Positions 2,945 through 21,478 of a stretch of DNA of 23,183 nucleotides are shown here, piece after piece (positions within the stretch are counted from its first letter, which is position 1; every line of letters begins with the position of its first letter). The DNA is from a virus. A program made the translations under genes and the position numbers. The stretch is taken from IMG/VR virus record IMGVR_UViG_3300034407_001878, positions 1 to 23,183 of that record; one strand, given 5' to 3'. The notes under the pieces are model-generated. The model was given only the letters and a program-made list of their open reading frames with translations, did not search any database and was not told where the DNA came from.

Positions 2945-3331
2945 ATGGCATACGAATCAGTAGGAACAGATCTCGGCTTCTTCACAGCCGCCGCTGATCT
3001 GTCATCAAAACAATATTATTTTGTAAAGCTGGCAAGTTCCACCACTGTAAATGTTTGTGCGGCAGTAACCGATAAACCAATCGGTGTACTTCAGAACAAA
3101 CCAGCATCAGGGGAACAAGCAATTGTTCGTGTATTCGGAGTTTCCAAGATTTCTGCTGACGCCACATTGGCGGCAGGCGATGTTATTGGAACTTCAGCAG
3201 ACGGACAAGCACAACCAATAACACTCGGTTCAGAAACAACCGTACACGTTTGCGGTCAAGCTATCGAGGCTGGTGCGGCTGGGAACATTTTGGCGGCTTA
3301 CGTTAACGTAACAAACGGTAGAGGAGCTTAA
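2945..3331 (+). CDS. Capsid decoration protein, DUF2190-like
   Basis: This 128-residue Ala/Gly/Val-rich protein reads as a compact beta-barrel. The motifs DKPIGVLQNKPASGEQAIVRV and AGAAGNILAAYV are typical of the DUF2190 family of small capsid decoration/stabilisation proteins. In that family a turn of the form 'PIGVLQN.PA.GE.A.V...G' is characteristic. It begins 3 nt after the scaffold stop and ends 3 nt before the capsid start, with a GAGGAG-type ribosome site at each junction. The position between scaffold and major capsid protein is the usual one for such proteins. It is expected to bind the outer face of the mature head. Confidence 0.8.
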   Translation: MAYESVGTDLGFFTAAADLSSKQYYFVKLASSTTVNVCAAVTDKPIGVLQNKPASGEQAIVRVFGVSKISADATLAAGDVIGTSADGQAQPITLGSETTVHVCGQAIEAGAAGNILAAYVNVTNGRGA

Positions 3332-3333
3332 CC

Positions 3334-4290
3334 ATGCCATCACCAACAACATCAGATGTACATGTAGACGCAGTATTGACAAATATGTCGATTGCATACA
3401 TGCAGGACCAAGACCACTTCGTAGCCGGTAAAGTCTTTCCGACAGTACCAGTTCAGAAACAAAGTGATCTTTATTACACATACACACAAGCAGACTTCTT
3501 CCGAGATGCCGTTGAATTACGAGCAGACGGAACAGAGTCAGCAGGAACCGGATACGGTCTTAGCACTGACAGCTACAGCGCACTCGTATATGCCCTCCAT
3601 AAAGATATTGGAGATCAAGTTCGAGCTAACAGCGATGCACCTTTGTCACCAGACCAAGACGCAACCCGATTCCTTACACAGCAAATGCTACTTCGTCAAG
3701 AAATTGACTGGGCTAGCAAATACTTTGGAACATCAATCTGGGGAACCGATAGCACACCATCTACCCTATGGAGTGCGGCATCAGGTTCTGACCCAATAGG
3801 TAATGTTCAAACAGGAATAAATACTGTACTAACCAACACAGGTTACAAGCCAAACGTGATGGTTATGTCTTACGCAGTATTTAGTATTCTCAAAAATCAT
3901 GCTGACATCGTTGACCGATACAAGTACACATCTTCATCATCAATCACAGAAGACCTTTTGGCTTCCGTTCTTGGTGTTGAACGAGTGCTTGTCATGGGTG
4001 GAATCAAAAATAGTGCGGCTGAAGGCGCAAGCGCATCATACGCACAAATTGGCGATAAAGATGCTCTGCTAGCCTACGTTGCACCAAACGCTGGAATCAT
4101 GGCACCATCCGCTGGTTATAATTTCTCATGGACAGGGCTAGCCCAATCCGGTGGGATAGGAACTAACACAGCAATCAGTAGATTCAGAATGGATTCATTG
4201 CGAGCAGATAGGATAGAAATCGAATCCGCATGGAGCTACAAAGTAGTTTCAAGTGCACTCGGTTATTTCTTCTCTAACTGCGTAAGCTGA
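3334..4290 (+). CDS. Major capsid protein
   Basis: The 318-residue protein has the length and gene position of an HK97-fold major capsid subunit without a long N-terminal delta domain. That fits with the separate scaffold gene two positions upstream. Recognisable capsid features are an N-terminal segment with FVAGKVFPTVPV, a helical stretch LTQQMLLRQEIDWASKYF, and P-N-V-M-V-M-S near the centre. These resemble gpE-type/HK97-like coat proteins of actinophages. Its ribosome site is GAGGAG. A strong terminator hairpin follows 15 nt after the stop, so capsid transcript is likely made in excess over the connector genes. I am confident of the role and less so of the exact capsid subfamily. Confidence 0.88.
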   Translation: MPSPTTSDVHVDAVLTNMSIAYMQDQDHFVAGKVFPTVPVQKQSDLYYTYTQADFFRDAVELRADGTESAGTGYGLSTDSYSALVYALHKDIGDQVRANSDAPLSPDQDATRFLTQQMLLRQEIDWASKYFGTSIWGTDSTPSTLWSAASGSDPIGNVQTGINTVLTNTGYKPNVMVMSYAVFSILKNHADIVDRYKYTSSSSITEDLLASVLGVERVLVMGGIKNSAAEGASASYAQIGDKDALLAYVAPNAGIMAPSAGYNFSWTGLAQSGGIGTNTAISRFRMDSLRADRIEIESAWSYKVVSSALGYFFSNCVS

Positions 4291-5215: not shown

Positions 5216-5634
5216 AAATAGAAATCCAAAACCTTGAACAGTTACAACGAGAAATGGAGAACCTTAACTTAAAGGTTCTTGATGCTGTACACGATGCCGT
5301 AACCGATTTAACAACAGACGTTATGAAACAGTCAATGGATTTGGTTCCGTTTGATACAGGTAATCTGCGCCGTTCTATCGTGGTGAAATACCCGAAACTT
5401 CGAAGCCAACAACCGGAAGGCGAAATCAGTTACGGAGGGGCGGCGGCTCCATACGCAGTCGTTCAACACGAAAACGAAAAGCTATTCCATCCGAGCAAAG
5501 CTAGAGGCGGAACCGGACCGACTCAACCACCGACACAAGGGTCACCTAAATACCTTGAATACCCAGTCAAACAAATAGCTGGCAAAAAGTTCGAAAAAAC
5601 AATTATTGAGAAAGTGAACAAGTTTCTGCGATGA
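5212..5634 (+). CDS. HK97 gp10-like neck/tail-completion protein
   Basis: The 140-residue product contains the family signature of HK97 gp10-like proteins. An N-terminal helix (NLEQLQREMENLNLK) is followed by LVPFDTGNLRRSI around residues 45-57 and then a YAVVQHENE segment. The 'P-x-DTG-x-L-x-x-S' motif followed by 'YA..qE' is diagnostic. Such proteins help join the tail to the neck. It overlaps both neighbours by ATGA start/stop junctions, which implies translational coupling across the four connector genes. The family call is confident; its exact ring position in the neck is not visible from sequence. Confidence 0.85.
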   Translation: MKIEIQNLEQLQREMENLNLKVLDAVHDAVTDLTTDVMKQSMDLVPFDTGNLRRSIVVKYPKLRSQQPEGEISYGGAAAPYAVVQHENEKLFHPSKARGGTGPTQPPTQGSPKYLEYPVKQIAGKKFEKTIIEKVNKFLR

Positions 5635-6218: not shown

Positions 6219-6548
6219 TTAGAGGTAGCTTGTTAGTGCTTTGATAAGTGACTTTGCATCTTCTCTTGTGATTACCAGACTTTGAGTAGTGCTAAATCCG
6301 TGATCCCATTCATCTTCTGTGATTACTAGATTTTGATGTGCTCTAATTCTCAAGTCACCATCTTTATTGGTTCCTTGTACGGTAATACTGTTTGAGGTAA
6401 AGTAATCCTCTTCATCGAGGGCAGCCACTCCGGTTGTCATGGTGTTGTAAATTACTCTGTTTCTGCCATCTACTGTGGTTACTGCTCTCCCGTAGTGAGT
6501 TTGGTTTCCTTCACTATCGAGGGTTTGTTTTATTATTTCTTGTTCCAT
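6219..6548 (-). CDS. Hypothetical early phage protein
   Basis: No family was recognised. The 109-residue product starts MEQEIIKQTLDSEGNQTHYG and is beta-rich and acidic. The C-terminal part, NLVITEDEWDHGFSTTQSLV followed by a helix ending KALTSYL, resembles the ends of the small proteins at 8474-8764 and 8312-8464. They may be distant paralogues. I chose the ATG at 6548, preceded by ACGAAAGGA; the in-frame ATG at 6584 at the predicted +1 would add 12 residues (MEQTLNNERINS). It is a single-gene unit with its own early-type promoter and a perfect terminator. Its function is unknown. Confidence 0.75.
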   Translation of the reverse strand: MEQEIIKQTLDSEGNQTHYGRAVTTVDGRNRVIYNTMTTGVAALDEEDYFTSNSITVQGTNKDGDLRIRAHQNLVITEDEWDHGFSTTQSLVITREDAKSLIKALTSYL

Positions 6549-6630
6549 GGAATTTATCCTTTCGTTGTTTAGTGTTTGTTCCATATGTTCACCTTAACTG
6601 GCTTTTTGGTAAAAGTAAACATTATCTTAC
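6549..6630 (-). promoter_or_regulatory. Early promoter and leader copy 2
   Basis: The -35 TTTACT is at 6619-6614, with a 17-bp spacer and -10 TAAGGT at 6596-6591. After 6 nt the leader starts ATGGAACAAAC at 6584, is 36 nt long and in frame, and has ACGAAAGGA before the gene ATG. The GTAA-N8-TTAC dyad is at 6615-6630. Confidence 0.85.
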
Positions 6631-8473: not shown

Positions 8474-8764
8474 TTAGCTTTCTGCTGGTCGGGAGTAACC
8501 GCCATCTTTCTTGATGGCTTTGTCAAGTTTTACAATTTCAGCAATCATTTCTGCATTAAGCGTGATATCTAAAATTCCGCCGTCCCACTCGTCTTGTATT
8601 ACTACGTGGATTTCGGTTGGAATTTCTTGGCAGTATTCCCTACCTTCAGTTGCACTGATGTATGTGTGATATCGTTCGAAGATGCTCCGAACTTTGCGTG
8701 ATTCGGCAGACTTTCTCATTAATCTACGATATTTCCGTGTTTGTGTTTCTCTAAATTTACTCAT
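8474..8764 (-). CDS. Hypothetical early phage protein
   Basis: No family was recognised. The 96-residue product has a strongly basic N-terminus (MSKFRETQTRKYRRLMRK) that could touch nucleic acid. Its C-terminal half includes IHVVIQDEWDGGILDITLNA, echoing the NLVITEDEWD segment of the protein at 6219. The start at 8764 follows ACGAAAGGACAAATTCC. An in-frame ATG at 8800, at the predicted transcription start, would add MEQTLNNERTNS. It is first in a two-gene early operon with 8312-8464. DNA or RNA binding is a guess from charge only. Confidence 0.72.
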   Translation of the reverse strand: MSKFRETQTRKYRRLMRKSAESRKVRSIFERYHTYISATEGREYCQEIPTEIHVVIQDEWDGGILDITLNAEMIAEIVKLDKAIKKDGGYSRPAES

Positions 8765-8846
8765 GGAATTTGTCCTTTCGTTGTTTAGTGTTTGTTCCAT
8801 ATGTATAACCTATCAGGACTTTTGGTAAAAGTAAACATTATCTTAC
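8765..8846 (-). promoter_or_regulatory. Early promoter and leader copy 3
   Basis: The -35 TTTACT is at 8835-8830, with a 17-bp spacer and -10 TAGGTT at 8812-8807. After 6 nt the 36-nt leader begins ATGGAACAAAC at 8800, in frame, with ACGAAAGGA. The dyad GTAA-N8-TTAC is at 8831-8846. Confidence 0.82.
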
Positions 8847-10264: not shown

Positions 10265-10479
10265 TTCTCAAGGACTGGCATTTACTTGCCGCTTGTCGTG
10301 GGTTGCCTACTGAATGGTTTTATCCGATCAACAAAAATAAGGCTGAGATACGCAAAGCTGTTCAAGTTTGTAACCGTTGCGTGGTTCGTCTTGATTGTTT
10401 GAATACTGCAATAGAGAACGGTGAAGAATGGGGGGTATGGGGGGGACTTTCCCCCACCATACGGTTGAAGAACTTTTAG
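10264..10479 (+). CDS. whiB: WhiB-family Fe-S transcription factor without a standard start codon
   Basis: The frame encodes DWHLLAACRG, then VQVCNRCVVRLDC and EEWGVWGGLSPT. Counting from the ATT at 10264, four cysteines at 11, 36, 39 and 45 (C-x24-C-x2-C-x5-C) and a G-V-W-G-G turn at 57-61 identify WhiB, an actinobacterial family that binds a 4Fe-4S cluster and sigma factor. Between the upstream in-frame stop (10162-10164) and the first cysteine there is no ATG, GTG or TTG. Either ATT at 10264, overlapping the previous TAA, is used, or -1 frameshifting in the previous gene produces a fusion. The listed start is the ATT. An assembly error in the A-rich tail is a third possibility. Phage WhiB proteins can interfere with host WhiB function and septation. 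Confidence 0.85.
   Translation: MLKDWHLLAACRGLPTEWFYPINKNKAEIRKAVQVCNRCVVRLDCLNTAIENGEEWGVWGGLSPTIRLKNF
10435..10462. terminator. Stem-loop inside the end of whiB at a convergent junction
   Basis: GTATGGGGGGG pairs with CCCCC and CCATAC with one bulged A and a 5-nt loop. It is the only strong hairpin at the convergent junction of 10479 (+) and 10481 (-), where other junctions have terminators. U-tracts are poor: only CTTTT some 10 nt later on the plus strand. It overlaps the codons of the WhiB G-V-W-G-G turn, so coding constraint may explain part of it. Confidence 0.4.
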
Positions 10480-10480
10480 G

Positions 10481-10942
10481 TTATAGTTCTCCTGCTTTTT
10501 TTAGAATCACTCGTAGGTCTTGTTCTTTGCGAAGATTAGGACCAAACTCGGTGCTCCATTTGTGTAGCGTACTCATTGGCGCTGGGTTTCTTCTTGCGTA
10601 GGAGCTACGTTCACGGTATTTCCAAATGTAATCGTTGAGTGATTCTTCCCTTCTGTGGTTCTCAATTTCTCTGGCTCTTGTTTTCTGTTCTGCTGTGAGT
10701 TTTACTTCCCACCAAGGTACGAAGGTTCTTTCCCTTTCTTCGTATGCTTCGGCTCTTGTAATGTGGTAAGTATCCCAGAAGATGTTTGCTGGTGTTCCTT
10801 TTTGGCTTCGTTCTGGTGATCCTCCGCTGAAGGTGATTCCGGTTTCTTGCTCAAGTTCTAATGCTCTGTCTTGAACTTCATCCGTTGAGGCGAAGGCTCT
10901 CCCTAATCTTTTTGCTTCTTTGATTATTTCTTGTGTGTTCAT
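10481..10942 (-). CDS. Hypothetical early phage protein, charged helical
   Basis: No family was recognised. The 153-residue protein is helical and rich in Glu, Arg and Lys, with a central W-W-E-V-K-L-T-A-E-Q motif and many Arg-Glu pairs (ENHRREESLNDYIWKYRERS). No membrane segment or Cys cluster is present. The ATG at 10942 follows ACGAAAGGA; an in-frame ATG at 10972 on the predicted +1 would add MEQKLTKGKS. It is a single-gene early unit whose stop lies 1 nt from the whiB stop on the opposite strand. Its promoter faces the small-RNA locus rather than a plus-strand gene. Confidence 0.75.
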   Translation of the reverse strand: MNTQEIIKEAKRLGRAFASTDEVQDRALELEQETGITFSGGSPERSQKGTPANIFWDTYHITRAEAYEERERTFVPWWEVKLTAEQKTRAREIENHRREESLNDYIWKYRERSSYARRNPAPMSTLHKWSTEFGPNLRKEQDLRVILKKAGEL

Positions 10943-11018
10943 GGATTTTCCTTTCGTTAGTTTTTGTTCCATAGGTTCACCATAACTGGATTATTTCAGA
11001 AAGTAAACATTATCTTAC
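10943..11018 (-). promoter_or_regulatory. Early promoter and leader copy 4
   Basis: The -35 TTTACT is at 11007-11002, with a 17-bp spacer and -10 TATGGT at 10984-10979. After 6 nt the 30-nt leader begins ATGGAACAAA at 10972, in frame, with ACGAAAGGA. The dyad is at 11003-11018. The upstream transcript terminates 26 nt away at 11044. Confidence 0.85.
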
Positions 11019-11040: not shown

Positions 11041-11082
11041 AACAAAAAAACCCCTCACCGCCCATGAAAAACGGTGAGGGGT
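11041..11082 (-). terminator. Strong intrinsic terminator of the early operon and small RNA
   Basis: On the minus strand ACCCCTCACCG and its exact complement form an 11-bp stem (11082-11072 with 11060-11050) and an 11-nt loop, then UUUUUUU and GUU. There is no U-tract on the plus strand, so it acts on minus-strand transcripts only. Confidence 0.92.
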
Positions 11083-11169
11083 GGGCGCTAGGGGTTGTAA
11101 ATTTATGGAACAAACTACCCCTAGCTGATGTGACGTAGGTACGAAAGGTAACCCTACGCCACTATGTTC
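11041..11169 (-). ncRNA. Candidate antisense small RNA with two leader-complementary loops
   Basis: Three stem-loops follow each other on the minus strand with 4-nt linkers. Hairpin 1 (11162-11130) has a 10-bp stem with one G-U pair and a 13-nt loop GUUACCUUUCGUA. Hairpin 2 (11125-11087) has a perfect 9-bp stem GCTAGGGGT/ACCCCTAGC and a 21-nt loop starting AGUUUGUUCCAU. Hairpin 3 (11082-11050) is a perfect terminator with a U7 tail. Loop 1 is complementary to ACGAAAGG, the Shine-Dalgarno core of all early leaders, extending to UACGAAAGG in copies 6 and 7. Loop 2 is complementary to the leader 5' end: 12 nt in copy 1, 11 in copies 2, 3 and 8, 10 in copies 4, 6 and 7, and 11 with one G-U in copy 5. 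It could be the processed 3' end of the 13032-11174 operon. Alternatively it starts near 11169 from a TACAAT -10 at 11181-11176 whose -35 is poor. Confidence 0.65.
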
Positions 11170-11173
11170 TTAT

Positions 11174-11650
11174 CTATTGTATCCTAACTGATGGCTTCCC
11201 CCATGTTGTTGCACAATACTCGTCTGTATCCACACCGATTTCTGTGAGGTCTGTCTTGCGCCAGTAACTAACTTTGGCACACTTCTCGATCAGTCTGCGT
11301 ACTGCGGCGGCTTCACTTTCAACCATGAGAACTTCACCAGTTGTTTCATCAACCTTTTTGATTCTCGTATCTTTGGCGATAGCCGAAATCACATTAAATA
11401 CTTCGTCATCATCCCATTTGTTTTTCGCTGAAACTGTTCGAGTGACGTAACCAATACCACCGATTGATAGTTCTTTATTCGGCATGAGTTCTGCGACTCG
11501 TTCGACCACATCTTTTTCCCATTCTCTCATCTCTTTGATTCTGCCTCGGCAGTCTTGAAGTTCTGCTAAGGCTTTTAGTAGATCATTGTATTGGGCTGGG
11601 TTGTTCTCCTTGAACTGGTCGCTGACTTCACAATTAATTGTTTCACTCAT
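11174..11650 (-). CDS. Conserved-looking hypothetical phage protein
   Basis: No family was recognised. The 158-residue protein has a helical N-terminal half (LLKALAELQDCRGRIKEMRE) with coiled-coil character, a middle beta segment around VTRTVSAKNKWDDDEVF, and a C-terminal DDE-rich segment with a conserved-looking WGKPSVRIQ end. Small helical proteins with this layout are common next to phage recombination genes, but I see no catalytic motif. The ATG overlaps the previous TAA (TAATG, 11650). It is the last gene of the early operon that begins at promoter copy 5; the three-hairpin RNA follows 12 nt after its stop. Confidence 0.75.
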   Translation of the reverse strand: MSETINCEVSDQFKENNPAQYNDLLKALAELQDCRGRIKEMREWEKDVVERVAELMPNKELSIGGIGYVTRTVSAKNKWDDDEVFNVISAIAKDTRIKKVDETTGEVLMVESEAAAVRRLIEKCAKVSYWRKTDLTEIGVDTDEYCATTWGKPSVRIQ

Positions 11651-12747: not shown

Positions 12748-13032
12748 TTATAGCCCTAGATGTCCGACTGTGTGTCCGATTGCGCTTGCTCGACCTATTT
12801 TATTTTGTGCGTACGTTCCGAGTAAAGATTGGAGATTGTTCTTCCAGTTTGTTATAGATGCTTCGTTCCATATTCCTCGGTAGTCGAAGTATTCATTTGC
12901 ATGGTCGTCTAATTTGTATTCCATTGTTTCAAACTCTGCTTGGCTCATTTGATCTTTTGCGCTGTTTAGTCTTTCCCACGCTGTCCAAATTAGGGCTTCT
13001 GCTTCTGTCATTTTTTGTATTTCTAAATTCAT
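12748..13032 (-). CDS. Hypothetical early phage protein, first gene of operon
   Basis: No family was recognised. The 94-residue protein is helical and aromatic-rich (EALIWTAWERLNSAKDQMSQ, then YFDYRGIWNEASITNW). No membrane segment or metal site is present. The ATG at 13032 follows ACGAAAGGACAAGCACC. An in-frame ATG at 13068 on the predicted +1 would add MEQTINNERTST. It is the first gene downstream of early promoter copy 5 and heads an operon of six genes that ends with the three-hairpin RNA. Confidence 0.72.
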   Translation of the reverse strand: MNLEIQKMTEAEALIWTAWERLNSAKDQMSQAEFETMEYKLDDHANEYFDYRGIWNEASITNWKNNLQSLLGTYAQNKIGRASAIGHTVGHLGL

Positions 13033-13114
13033 GGTGCTTGTCCTTTCGTTGTTTATCGTTTGCTCCATATGTATACCATATCAGGACTTTTTCAGAATGT
13101 AAACATTATCTTAC
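13033..13114 (-). promoter_or_regulatory. Early promoter and leader copy 5
   Basis: The -35 TTTACA is at 13103-13098, with a 17-bp spacer and -10 TATGGT at 13080-13075. After 6 nt the 36-nt leader begins ATGGAGCAAACG at 13068. This copy differs from the others by A to G at leader position 6, which would give a G-U pair with the antisense loop. It drives the operon that carries that RNA. Confidence 0.85.
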
Positions 13115-15470: not shown

Positions 15471-15764
15471 TTACTCGCTCCACCCTTCGCCATTAAGTTC
15501 TGTTAAGACTTCTTCGAGATCTCGGATGCTATCAACTTCTCCTCGAAGGAACTTCATTTGCCTTCTTGAATGCTCTGCATCTGCTTGTAATTTATTAAGT
15601 TCTGCTTGTAGTTCTCGGATTTGATTCTTTCTATTAACTTGCTCTTGCTTAACGGTTAGATACTTTAGATCTGTTTCGTTAAACTCTGGGCGAAGGTTCT
15701 TTACTGCCTCTATGTTTTTCTTTACGTTAATAATTAATTTGTAATAAATTATTTGTGTGTTCAT
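15471..15764 (-). CDS. Hypothetical early coiled-coil protein
   Basis: The 97-residue product begins MNTQIIYYKLIINVKKNIEA and is almost wholly helical, with heptad-like spacing over residues 38-80 (QIRELQAELNKLQADAEHSR). A short coiled coil or helical hairpin is expected. No enzymatic motif is present. The ATG at 15764 follows ACGAAAGGA, and an in-frame ATG at 15794 on the predicted +1 would add MEQNTTKGKS. It is a single-gene early unit ending at a bidirectional terminator. Such small coiled-coil proteins often bind and inhibit host proteins, but that is speculation here. Confidence 0.75.
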   Translation of the reverse strand: MNTQIIYYKLIINVKKNIEAVKNLRPEFNETDLKYLTVKQEQVNRKNQIRELQAELNKLQADAEHSRRQMKFLRGEVDSIRDLEEVLTELNGEGWSE

Positions 15765-15840
15765 GGATTTTCCTTTCGTAGTATTTTGTTCCATAGGTTC
15801 ACCATATCAGGACTTTTTCAGAAAGTAAACATTATCTTAC
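15765..15840 (-). promoter_or_regulatory. Early promoter and leader copy 6
   Basis: The -35 TTTACT is at 15829-15824, with a 17-bp spacer and -10 TATGGT at 15806-15801. After 6 nt the 30-nt leader begins ATGGAACAAA at 15794, in frame. Its TACGAAAGG matches loop 1 of the antisense RNA over 9 nt. The dyad ends 5 nt before the stop of the upstream operon, so that operon probably reads through. Confidence 0.85.
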
Positions 15841-16936: not shown

Positions 16937-17206
16937 TTAGGCTAGTTCTTCTTTGGTGATTACGAAATCGTTTTTGATGTTTGTGTAAACTCCGGCGCAC
17001 CGTTCATATGCTTTGAATACTTCATCGTCGGTGTCTTTATCAAATTGGGCATCGAAAATTGTCTTGCTATATTCTGCGTTTGCTTTTCCCAGTTTTTTAA
17101 GAATTGCTATTGCATCTTCTCTGGGTGTGTCGTCTACTGTTGGGTAGATTATCTCGTAGTGATCTGCAAGGTTGTTAAATAGCTTGGTTATTTGTTCTAT
17201 GGTCAT
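16937..17206 (-). CDS. Hypothetical early phage protein
   Basis: The 89-residue helical, acidic product starts MTIEQITKLFNNLADHYEII and contains DDTPREDAIAILKKLGKANA. No family was recognised. The ATG at 17206 follows ACGAAAGGA; an in-frame ATG at 17236 on the predicted +1 would add MEQNTTKGKS. It is the first gene of the operon driven by promoter copy 7 (six genes to 15845). Confidence 0.72.
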   Translation of the reverse strand: MTIEQITKLFNNLADHYEIIYPTVDDTPREDAIAILKKLGKANAEYSKTIFDAQFDKDTDDEVFKAYERCAGVYTNIKNDFVITKEELA

Positions 17207-17282
17207 GGATTTTCCTTTCGTAGTATTTTGTTCCATAGGTATACCATATCAGGACTTTTTCAGAAAGTAAACATTATCTTAC
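17207..17282 (-). promoter_or_regulatory. Early promoter and leader copy 7
   Basis: The -35 TTTACT is at 17271-17266, with a 17-bp spacer and -10 TATGGT at 17248-17243. After 6 nt the 30-nt leader begins ATGGAACAAA at 17236. The stop codon of the upstream HTH gene (17279-17281) lies within the dyad at 17267-17282, showing how tightly the two units abut. Confidence 0.85.
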
Positions 17283-21194: not shown

Positions 21195-21222
21195 AATTTC
21201 TTCCTTTCGTTGTTTTATTTAT

Positions 21223-21396
21223 TTAGAGATTCACTCTTATTTCAACTGGCTTATTCTTTTTGATGTCAAACTGTAGAACTCTTGTTGCTATCCACATGGT
21301 TTCACCTTCGTCAATTACTTCAACAAGTTTTCCAAACTCTGTGTACATTCCTATTTGTAAATCTTTGGCTTGGATTGTTTCTGTTTCTAAATTCAT
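21223..21396 (-). CDS. Small early protein, paralogue of the 12525-12698 product
   Basis: The 57-residue product (MNLETETIQAKDLQIGMYTE ... FGKLVEV ... VLQFDIKKNKPVEI) matches the 12525-12698 protein in nearly every core position. The ATG at 21396 follows ACGAAAGGACAAATTCC; an in-frame ATG at 21432 on the predicted +1 would add MEQTLNNERTNS. It is the first gene of the early operon that runs to 17279 and encodes recombination proteins. A small SH3-like barrel is suggested by the alternating hydrophobic pattern only. Confidence 0.78.
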   Translation of the reverse strand: MNLETETIQAKDLQIGMYTEFGKLVEVIDEGETMWIATRVLQFDIKKNKPVEIRVNL

Positions 21397-21478
21397 GGAA
21401 TTTGTCCTTTCGTTGTTTAGTGTTTGTTCCATATGTACATCGTATCAGGACTCTTTCAGAAAGTAAACATTATCTTAC
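21397..21478 (-). promoter_or_regulatory. Early promoter and leader copy 8
   Basis: The -35 TTTACT is at 21467-21462, with a 17-bp spacer and -10 TACGAT at 21444-21439. After 6 nt the 36-nt leader begins ATGGAACAAAC at 21432, in frame. The dyad is at 21463-21478. It drives twelve genes, the longest early operon here. Confidence 0.85.

Follow-up and report, generated by a model that had tools for sequence, protein, structure and literature searches.

The 23,183-bp virus record analysed here in its entirety (the window) very probably encodes, on its minus strand at 11043–11162, a multi-target antisense RNA that represses early translation of the phage. Loops of the predicted RNA are complementary to a leader segment common to eight genes, and loop and leaders change together across related phages, which makes it most likely that the RNA switches off many early genes at once. 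We hold with still greater confidence that base pairing is the selected function. Matching changes at two places argue for selection on the pairing, and ancestry alone is insufficient to account for them. The terms 'early' and 'late' are used here for putative gene classes distinguished by gene content and strand.

The element comprises two hairpins and an intrinsic terminator, all on the minus strand. Hairpin 1 (hp1, 11162–11130) has a 10-bp stem and the loop GUUACCUUUCGUA (11152–11140), and hairpin 2 (hp2, 11125–11087) has a 9-bp stem and the loop AGUUUGUUCCAUAAAUUUACA (11116–11096). Linkers of 4 nt, AUCA and GCCC, separate hp1 from hp2 and hp2 from the terminator (11043–11082), which consists of a stem (11082–11050) followed by a U tract and serves both the RNA and the operon upstream. 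The predicted fold of the 119-nt RNA has an energy of −60.7 kcal/mol (z = −9.1), a stability reached by none of 200 shuffled sequences. Coordinates and fold agree with an earlier, sequence-only reading of this DNA, which had placed two hairpins and a terminator, joined by 4-nt linkers, 3' of the gene at 11174–11650. No ORF of at least 40 aa runs across the element. Membership of a known RNA family was rejected, as no Rfam covariance model (C4 included) matches the window at the gathering score.

Eight minus-strand genes in the window begin with a nearly identical 5' segment, ATGGARCAAA..., followed by ACGAAAGGA and then by a second ATG. The Shine-Dalgarno (SD) segment ACGAAAGG is present in all eight leaders. 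Its complement, CCUUUCGU, lies in the loop of hp1 (loop 1), which complements 8–9 nt around the leader SD. AUGGAACAAACU is the 5' end of the leaders; its complement opens the loop of hp2 (loop 2), which complements the first 10–12 nt of seven of the eight; in the eighth (ATGGAGCAAAC) the match is interrupted by one G-U wobble. When the element is compared with leader nt 1–16, the match is 13 nt for the leader at 2152, where it reaches one base into the stem; three leaders have matches of 11 nt and three more have matches of 10 nt. The sequence ATGGAACAAACT occurs only twice in the record, in the leader at 2152 and as the antisense copy in the element.

All eight leaders are in frame with their genes. 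Leader 1 (ATGGAACAAACTAACACGAAAGGAAAATCC, 2123–2152; gene 1814–2152) has matches of 13 and 8 nt; leader 2 (6549–6584; gene 6219–6584), leader 3 (8765–8800; gene 8474–8800) and leader 8 (21397–21432; gene 21223–21432) have matches of 11 and 8 nt; leader 4 (10943–10972; gene 10481–10972) has matches of 10 and 8 nt; and leader 6 (15765–15794; gene 15471–15794) and leader 7 (17207–17236; gene 16937–17236) have matches of 10 and 9 nt. Leader 5 (13033–13068; gene 12748–13068) is the one with the G-U wobble to loop 2, and its gene is the first of the operon that ends in the RNA element. The promoter of leader 4 begins directly past the terminator of the RNA. No plus-strand gene in the window has the leader, as had been said of the plus-strand heads.

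Among 2000 dinucleotide shuffles of the element, none reached the mean 5'-end match (10.1 nt), 21 reached the SD match (8.2 nt) and none reached both. The sequence-only reading had described loop 1 as holding the exact complement of the SD core of all eight early leaders and loop 2 as the complement of the leader 5' end (12 nt in the first copy, 10–11 nt in most others), and had judged a 12-mer match improbable by chance; the counts given above sustain all three statements. Apart from the element's own complement, a sliding duplex scan of both strands ranked all eight leaders among the top 14 sites for loop 2; loop 1 by itself proved not specific. Loop 1 is the less specific of the two because ACGAAAGG also lies upstream of four minus-strand genes without a leader. 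These genes, at 21209, 16911, 12714 and 12283, have the SD segment CGAAAGGA in common, and loop 1 could reach all four.

The genes that carry leaders probably begin at a leaderless AUG and have a second, internal start. Among 52 distinct leaders, the distance from the first ATG to the SD-led ATG is a multiple of three in 50 (27, 30, 33, 36, 39 or 42 nt), and no stop codon intervenes in any of the 52; the exceptions are leader 24225 of genome G007, which is in frame with the next ATG, and leader 4386 of G009, which is not in frame. This count excludes G009 site 11135, where the ORF stops ahead of the SD-led start. Non-leader ATGs in a comparable setting, taken as a control, were in frame in 35 of 109 cases. 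A TAnnnT element ends 5–7 nt upstream of the ATG in all 52 leaders. By sequence, the leaders therefore have the features of leaderless mRNAs, a −10 element about 6–7 nt before the start and an ORF open from the first AUG. Since it is in frame with the genes, the 5' AUG probably serves as a genuine start codon, and the two loops thus cover both candidate initiation sites. The description of a common early mRNA leader in the sequence-only reading stands as regards the common 5' segment, but this segment is probably a leaderless coding start and not merely an untranslated leader; the leaderless in-frame starts are new relative to that reading. The in-frame first ATG in 50 of the 52 leaders also suggests that each gene yields two isoforms, one of them by leaderless translation.

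Relatives were sought by capsid, by the protein encoded next to the element, by a 91-aa protein encoded nearby and by loop patterns. Element and leaders were both present in 11 genomes or contigs, with eight leaders in the window and up to nine in relatives, and the leaders carry five codewords, ATGGAACAAAC, ATGGAAGCAAC, ATGGAAACAAC, ATGGAGTTAAC and ATGGAGTCAAA, which diverge at codon 3 (MEQ, MEA, MET, MEL and MES). In the window and in L003, leaders with ATGGARCAAA occur with the loop AGTTTGTTCCAT. G001 has leaders with ATGGAAGCAA and the loop TGTTTGCTTCCAA, and G005 (G010 and G011 have the same element) has leaders with ATGGAAGCAA and AAAGGAGA and a single loop, TTGCTTCCAAAATCTCCTT. Leaders with ATGGAAACAA or ATGGAAACGA are found together with the loop TGTTTGTTTCCAA in L117 and L146, and leaders with ATGGAAACAAC and AAGGAGAT together with the single loop CGTTGTTTCCAAAATCTCC in G008 (also in L180 and L337). 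The leaders of G004, G006 and G007 contain ATGGAGTTA and an SD segment that is CCAAGAAAGG or related to it; three of the four leaders in G004 have CAAGGAGA. The loops in these three genomes are TTAACTCCA or TAACTCCAT, and TCTTGGTTT or TTCTTGGTTT. G009 combines leaders containing ATGGAGTCAAA and CCAAGAAAGG with the loops TTTGACTCCA and TTCTTGGTTTG.

Codeword and loop form compensatory pairs: ATGGAACAAAC with GTTTGTTCCAT in the window, ATGGAAGCAAC with TTGCTTCCA in G001 and G005, ATGGAAACAAC with TTGTTTCCA in L117 and L146 and with CGTTGTTTCCA in G008, ATGGAGTTAAC with GTTAACTCCA in G007, and ATGGAGTCAAA with TTTGACTCCA in G009. The SD loop covaries as well, a CCTTTCG loop occurring with CGAAAGG leaders and a TCTTGGTTT loop with AAACCAAGA leaders. 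Loops match the codeword of their own genome in 11 of 11 genomes, and the longest exact complement to leader nt 1–14 averages 9.0 nt for the same codeword against 5.3 nt for the others. The observed sum was reached by none of 100,000 label permutations for the 5' part of the leader and by two of 100,000 for the SD part; this test counts related genomes as separate, and the safer figure is that from one genome per lineage, for which the true loop-leader assignment ranked first of 5040. Loop differences within close pairs (window and L003; L117 and L146) are confined to positions outside the complementary cores. Both leader segments are matched by loops in most genomes, the SD match in G005 and G008 being 5–7 nt only. 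Several genomes, G001 and G005 in particular, contain non-leader sites with predicted duplex energies as favourable as those of the leaders, and specificity would therefore depend on accessibility. In a tree of the neighbour protein the two GAAGCAA genomes do not group (moderate support), which suggests more than one codeword switch.

The stems of the element are unrelated in sequence across genomes, and the number of hairpins and the order of the loops vary, yet complementarity to the leaders is kept. The sequence-only reading had looked to compensatory changes in relatives as a check on the pairing. Such changes are found: over five codewords the loop tracks the leader and the stems do not, and we saw neither leaders that change over fixed loops nor conserved stems with loops that are not, the complementarity of the loops being conserved. 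The coevolution of loop and leader thus supports its core claim, that of an RNA antisense to the common early leader. Its further statement that pairing needs the SD loop to precede the AUG loop does not hold, since the order is reversed in G004, G006, G007 and G009, in all of which the last hairpin itself supplies the SD loop, and a single loop combines both matches in G005 and G008. The first hairpin of G005 (25029–25062; L101 near 5229–5262) has a loop, GGATATAAGGGTAGAA, that is unrelated to the leader; a portion of this loop, GGGATATAAG, is found again, in sense orientation, within the next leader's promoter region.

These comparisons bear on two readings in which the RNA would not act by pairing. 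It is scarcely credible that the element is a tandem terminator or 3' stabiliser only, with matches due to chance or low complexity. Strong stems and a terminator are indeed present, but the shuffle and permutation controls and the way loops follow the leaders over unrelated stems speak against it, and we rejected chance or low-complexity matching on the shuffles (0 of 2000 for both matches) and the permutations (0 of 100,000). It is also very improbable that the matching segments are recognised as duplex DNA by a protein that binds at the early promoters, their inverted orientation being due to chance. The 5' end of the leader does adjoin a conserved promoter that a DNA-binding protein could recognise; against this, the matching segments lie in hairpin loops in every genome, separate or combined and in either order, and the conserved upstream promoter is not copied whereas the SD segment is. 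The operator reading was rejected on these grounds, that the promoter part is uncopied and that order and architecture vary.

One further contig, L016, has the triple-hairpin architecture with an anti-SD loop (3235–3338, minus strand) and a second loop, ACGTTAAACC; no leader matching the second loop was found among the known leaders or by scan, and the contig has no recognised leader. Two fragments, G003 (14.7 kb) and L014 (5.6 kb), showed no element. Two more G008-type contigs came from a scan for GTTGNTTCCAAAATCTCC, in which the remaining new contigs with those letters had neither hairpin nor leader, and a scan for more GAGTTA-type elements gave nothing clear among the matches listed. De novo detection of loop-leader matches in other genomes at 9 nt failed to recover several true elements and, in GC-rich phages, gave many hits that resembled chance matches, and for these reasons we make no claim from it.

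Immediately upstream of the element in the window lies a gene (11174–11650, minus strand) for a 158-aa protein with no PHROG match. Homologues of this gene directly precede the element in L003, G001, G005, G006, G007, L016, L117 and L146 (nine cases with the window), and in G004 one extra gene lies between the two. The G004 element (2889–2978; L169 9705–9795), although further downstream of the usual neighbour gene, keeps the match to its own leaders. Searches of isolate phage records and of bacterial and archaeal genomes yielded no relative of the neighbour protein. The best relatives of the major capsid protein among isolate phages are those of Arthrobacter phages (46–48% identity), and an ORF at 10303–10479, which has relatives in other loci examined, is WhiB-like, a name given from its sequence; together these make an actinobacterial host likely, and the carriers probably form a family of uncultured phages of Actinobacteria. 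On the minus strand between 10400 and 13200, the terminator of the element is the only terminator-like site, and a promoter (TTTACA-17-TATGGT, 13103–13075) heads the operon from 13068 to 11043, which itself bears a leader. The element had been placed at the 3' end of an early operon, and this arrangement agrees. No convincing dedicated promoter was found upstream of the RNA, which may therefore be released by processing or stay a 3' UTR.

We propose that the segment encodes an antisense RNA of ~120 nt that would end at its own terminator. Its exposed hairpin loops would pair in trans with several early mRNAs of the same phage, one site being their common 5' end and the other the ribosome-binding segment. 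The target mRNAs would start at or beside the AUG and have a second, SD-led start 27–42 nt downstream in the same frame, and loops on both segments would block both modes of translation start. Because an early operon of the window that bears the same leader ends in this RNA, accumulation of the RNA would give delayed negative feedback and close early synthesis, which the plus-strand late genes, having no leader, would escape. The simplest reading is that the RNA would exert feedback both on the operon it ends and on the remaining early units.

A different outcome of the same pairing, activation or redirection, seems improbable: the RNA would shield the 5' AUG, or protect the mRNA 5' end from decay, and shift initiation between the two starts, giving a choice of isoforms or a stabilised mRNA. 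Nearly all leaders do have two in-frame starts, and the loops of G005 and G008 match the 5' start over a far greater length than the SD. In most genomes, however, both segments are matched, so that both starts would be blocked rather than one chosen, and pairing over an SD as a rule represses.

By analogy with known phage immunity, the RNA could instead serve mainly to silence the early genes of superinfecting or resident phages with the same codeword, and selection for immunity would then explain the diversity of codewords. In keeping with this, related phages carry five codewords and appear to have switched more than once, and c4 RNA has a reported part, by loop pairing at a ribosome-binding site, in P1/P7 heteroimmunity (PMC12197685). 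We nevertheless consider immunity unlikely as the main role, since the RNA and its targets belong to one class of operon, which feedback fits equally well. A broader scheme, though doubtful, would combine the two roles: one codeword on most early leaderless mRNAs would be read by one RNA that blocks both starts, codewords would diverge like immunity groups, the RNA might be at once an early-to-late switch and an immunity determinant between related phages, and a related arrangement might explain the start-associated sequences of cluster K1 phages.

Repression by this RNA would be of interest in several respects. Known phage antisense RNAs mostly govern one or two genes, and the window RNA would use a common code to silence an entire class of viral genes. 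It seems to be aimed at leaderless 5' starts, the antisense control of which is, to our knowledge, little known. Since one loop coevolves with many leaders, the pairing can be tested directly by swapping codewords between phages.

Cluster K mycobacteriophages offer a lead in this direction. Their Start-Associated Sequences (SAS), a motif with an SD core present in 11–19 copies per genome, lie before non-structural genes, and four K1 phages carry one reverse copy (PMC3203893). In Adephagia we find that the gene 92–93 interval contains a strong hairpin with the reverse SAS in its loop, CCTCCTATCC (L200 33683–33695; JF704105 near 58682–58694); late transcription has been reported to begin in this interval (PMC11373665). 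DNA similar to this hairpin occurs in 134 phage records; an alignment of nine sequences shows pairing in 95% of stem cells, two doubly changed pairs and a loop core that is intact in eight. The hairpin loop is altered in Ekdilam, and the stretches examined of Pixie, SirPhilip, ZoeJ, Kratio and Unicorn lack the full antisense loop and keep the motif, so that we do not accept cluster K as a second proven case. The hairpin region is annotated with hypothetical ORFs in some records (L204 94–417, L205 114–444) and is intergenic in others. The SAS motif GGGATAGGAGCCC lies a few nt upstream of the start codon, whereas leaders of the window group begin with the ATG and use CGAAAGG, CCAAGAAAGG or AAAGGAGA in place of that motif. 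The single reverse copy in cultivable K1 phages nonetheless gives an experimental entry to the role of SAS, a question since 2011.

Our search of the open-access literature turned up no phage RNA that targets a common leader. Repression of phage mRNAs by pairing, proposed here for the window RNA, is the action of lambda OOP, P22 sar and other cis-antisense phage RNAs, but they lie opposite a single target with long perfect matches, whereas the window RNA is encoded elsewhere and has short loop matches to many targets. Trans-acting bacterial sRNAs, including those derived from 3' UTRs, resemble the proposed RNA in their short seeds, structure, own terminator, many targets and blocking of start sites. 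Like a trans-encoded sRNA, the window RNA has its matches (8–13 nt) away from the element, in eight leaders spread over 19 kb, and the loops and leaders of its relatives show compensatory RNA-target evolution. It differs from bacterial sRNAs in that one virus holds both the regulator and the code common to all targets, with loops for two starts, and in that no Hfq dependence is implied.

In its predicted action the window RNA comes closest to c4 of P1/P7, a phage antisense RNA reported to pair around the ribosome-binding site of a phage mRNA through complementary segments in loops (PMC12197685). The complementary segments of the window RNA also lie in predicted loops and are aimed at a phage ribosome-binding site. 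While c4 governs synthesis of the antirepressor (ant), the window RNA faces many separate mRNAs, including their leaderless 5' ends; it is located at the 3' end of an operon and has no match in Rfam, which holds a C4 family. P1 c4 is processed from a transcript common with its target, upstream of the antirepressor gene, whereas the window element lies downstream of its operon and seven of the eight leaders head other transcripts. The window RNA thus resembles P1 c4 in its predicted action without belonging to c4.
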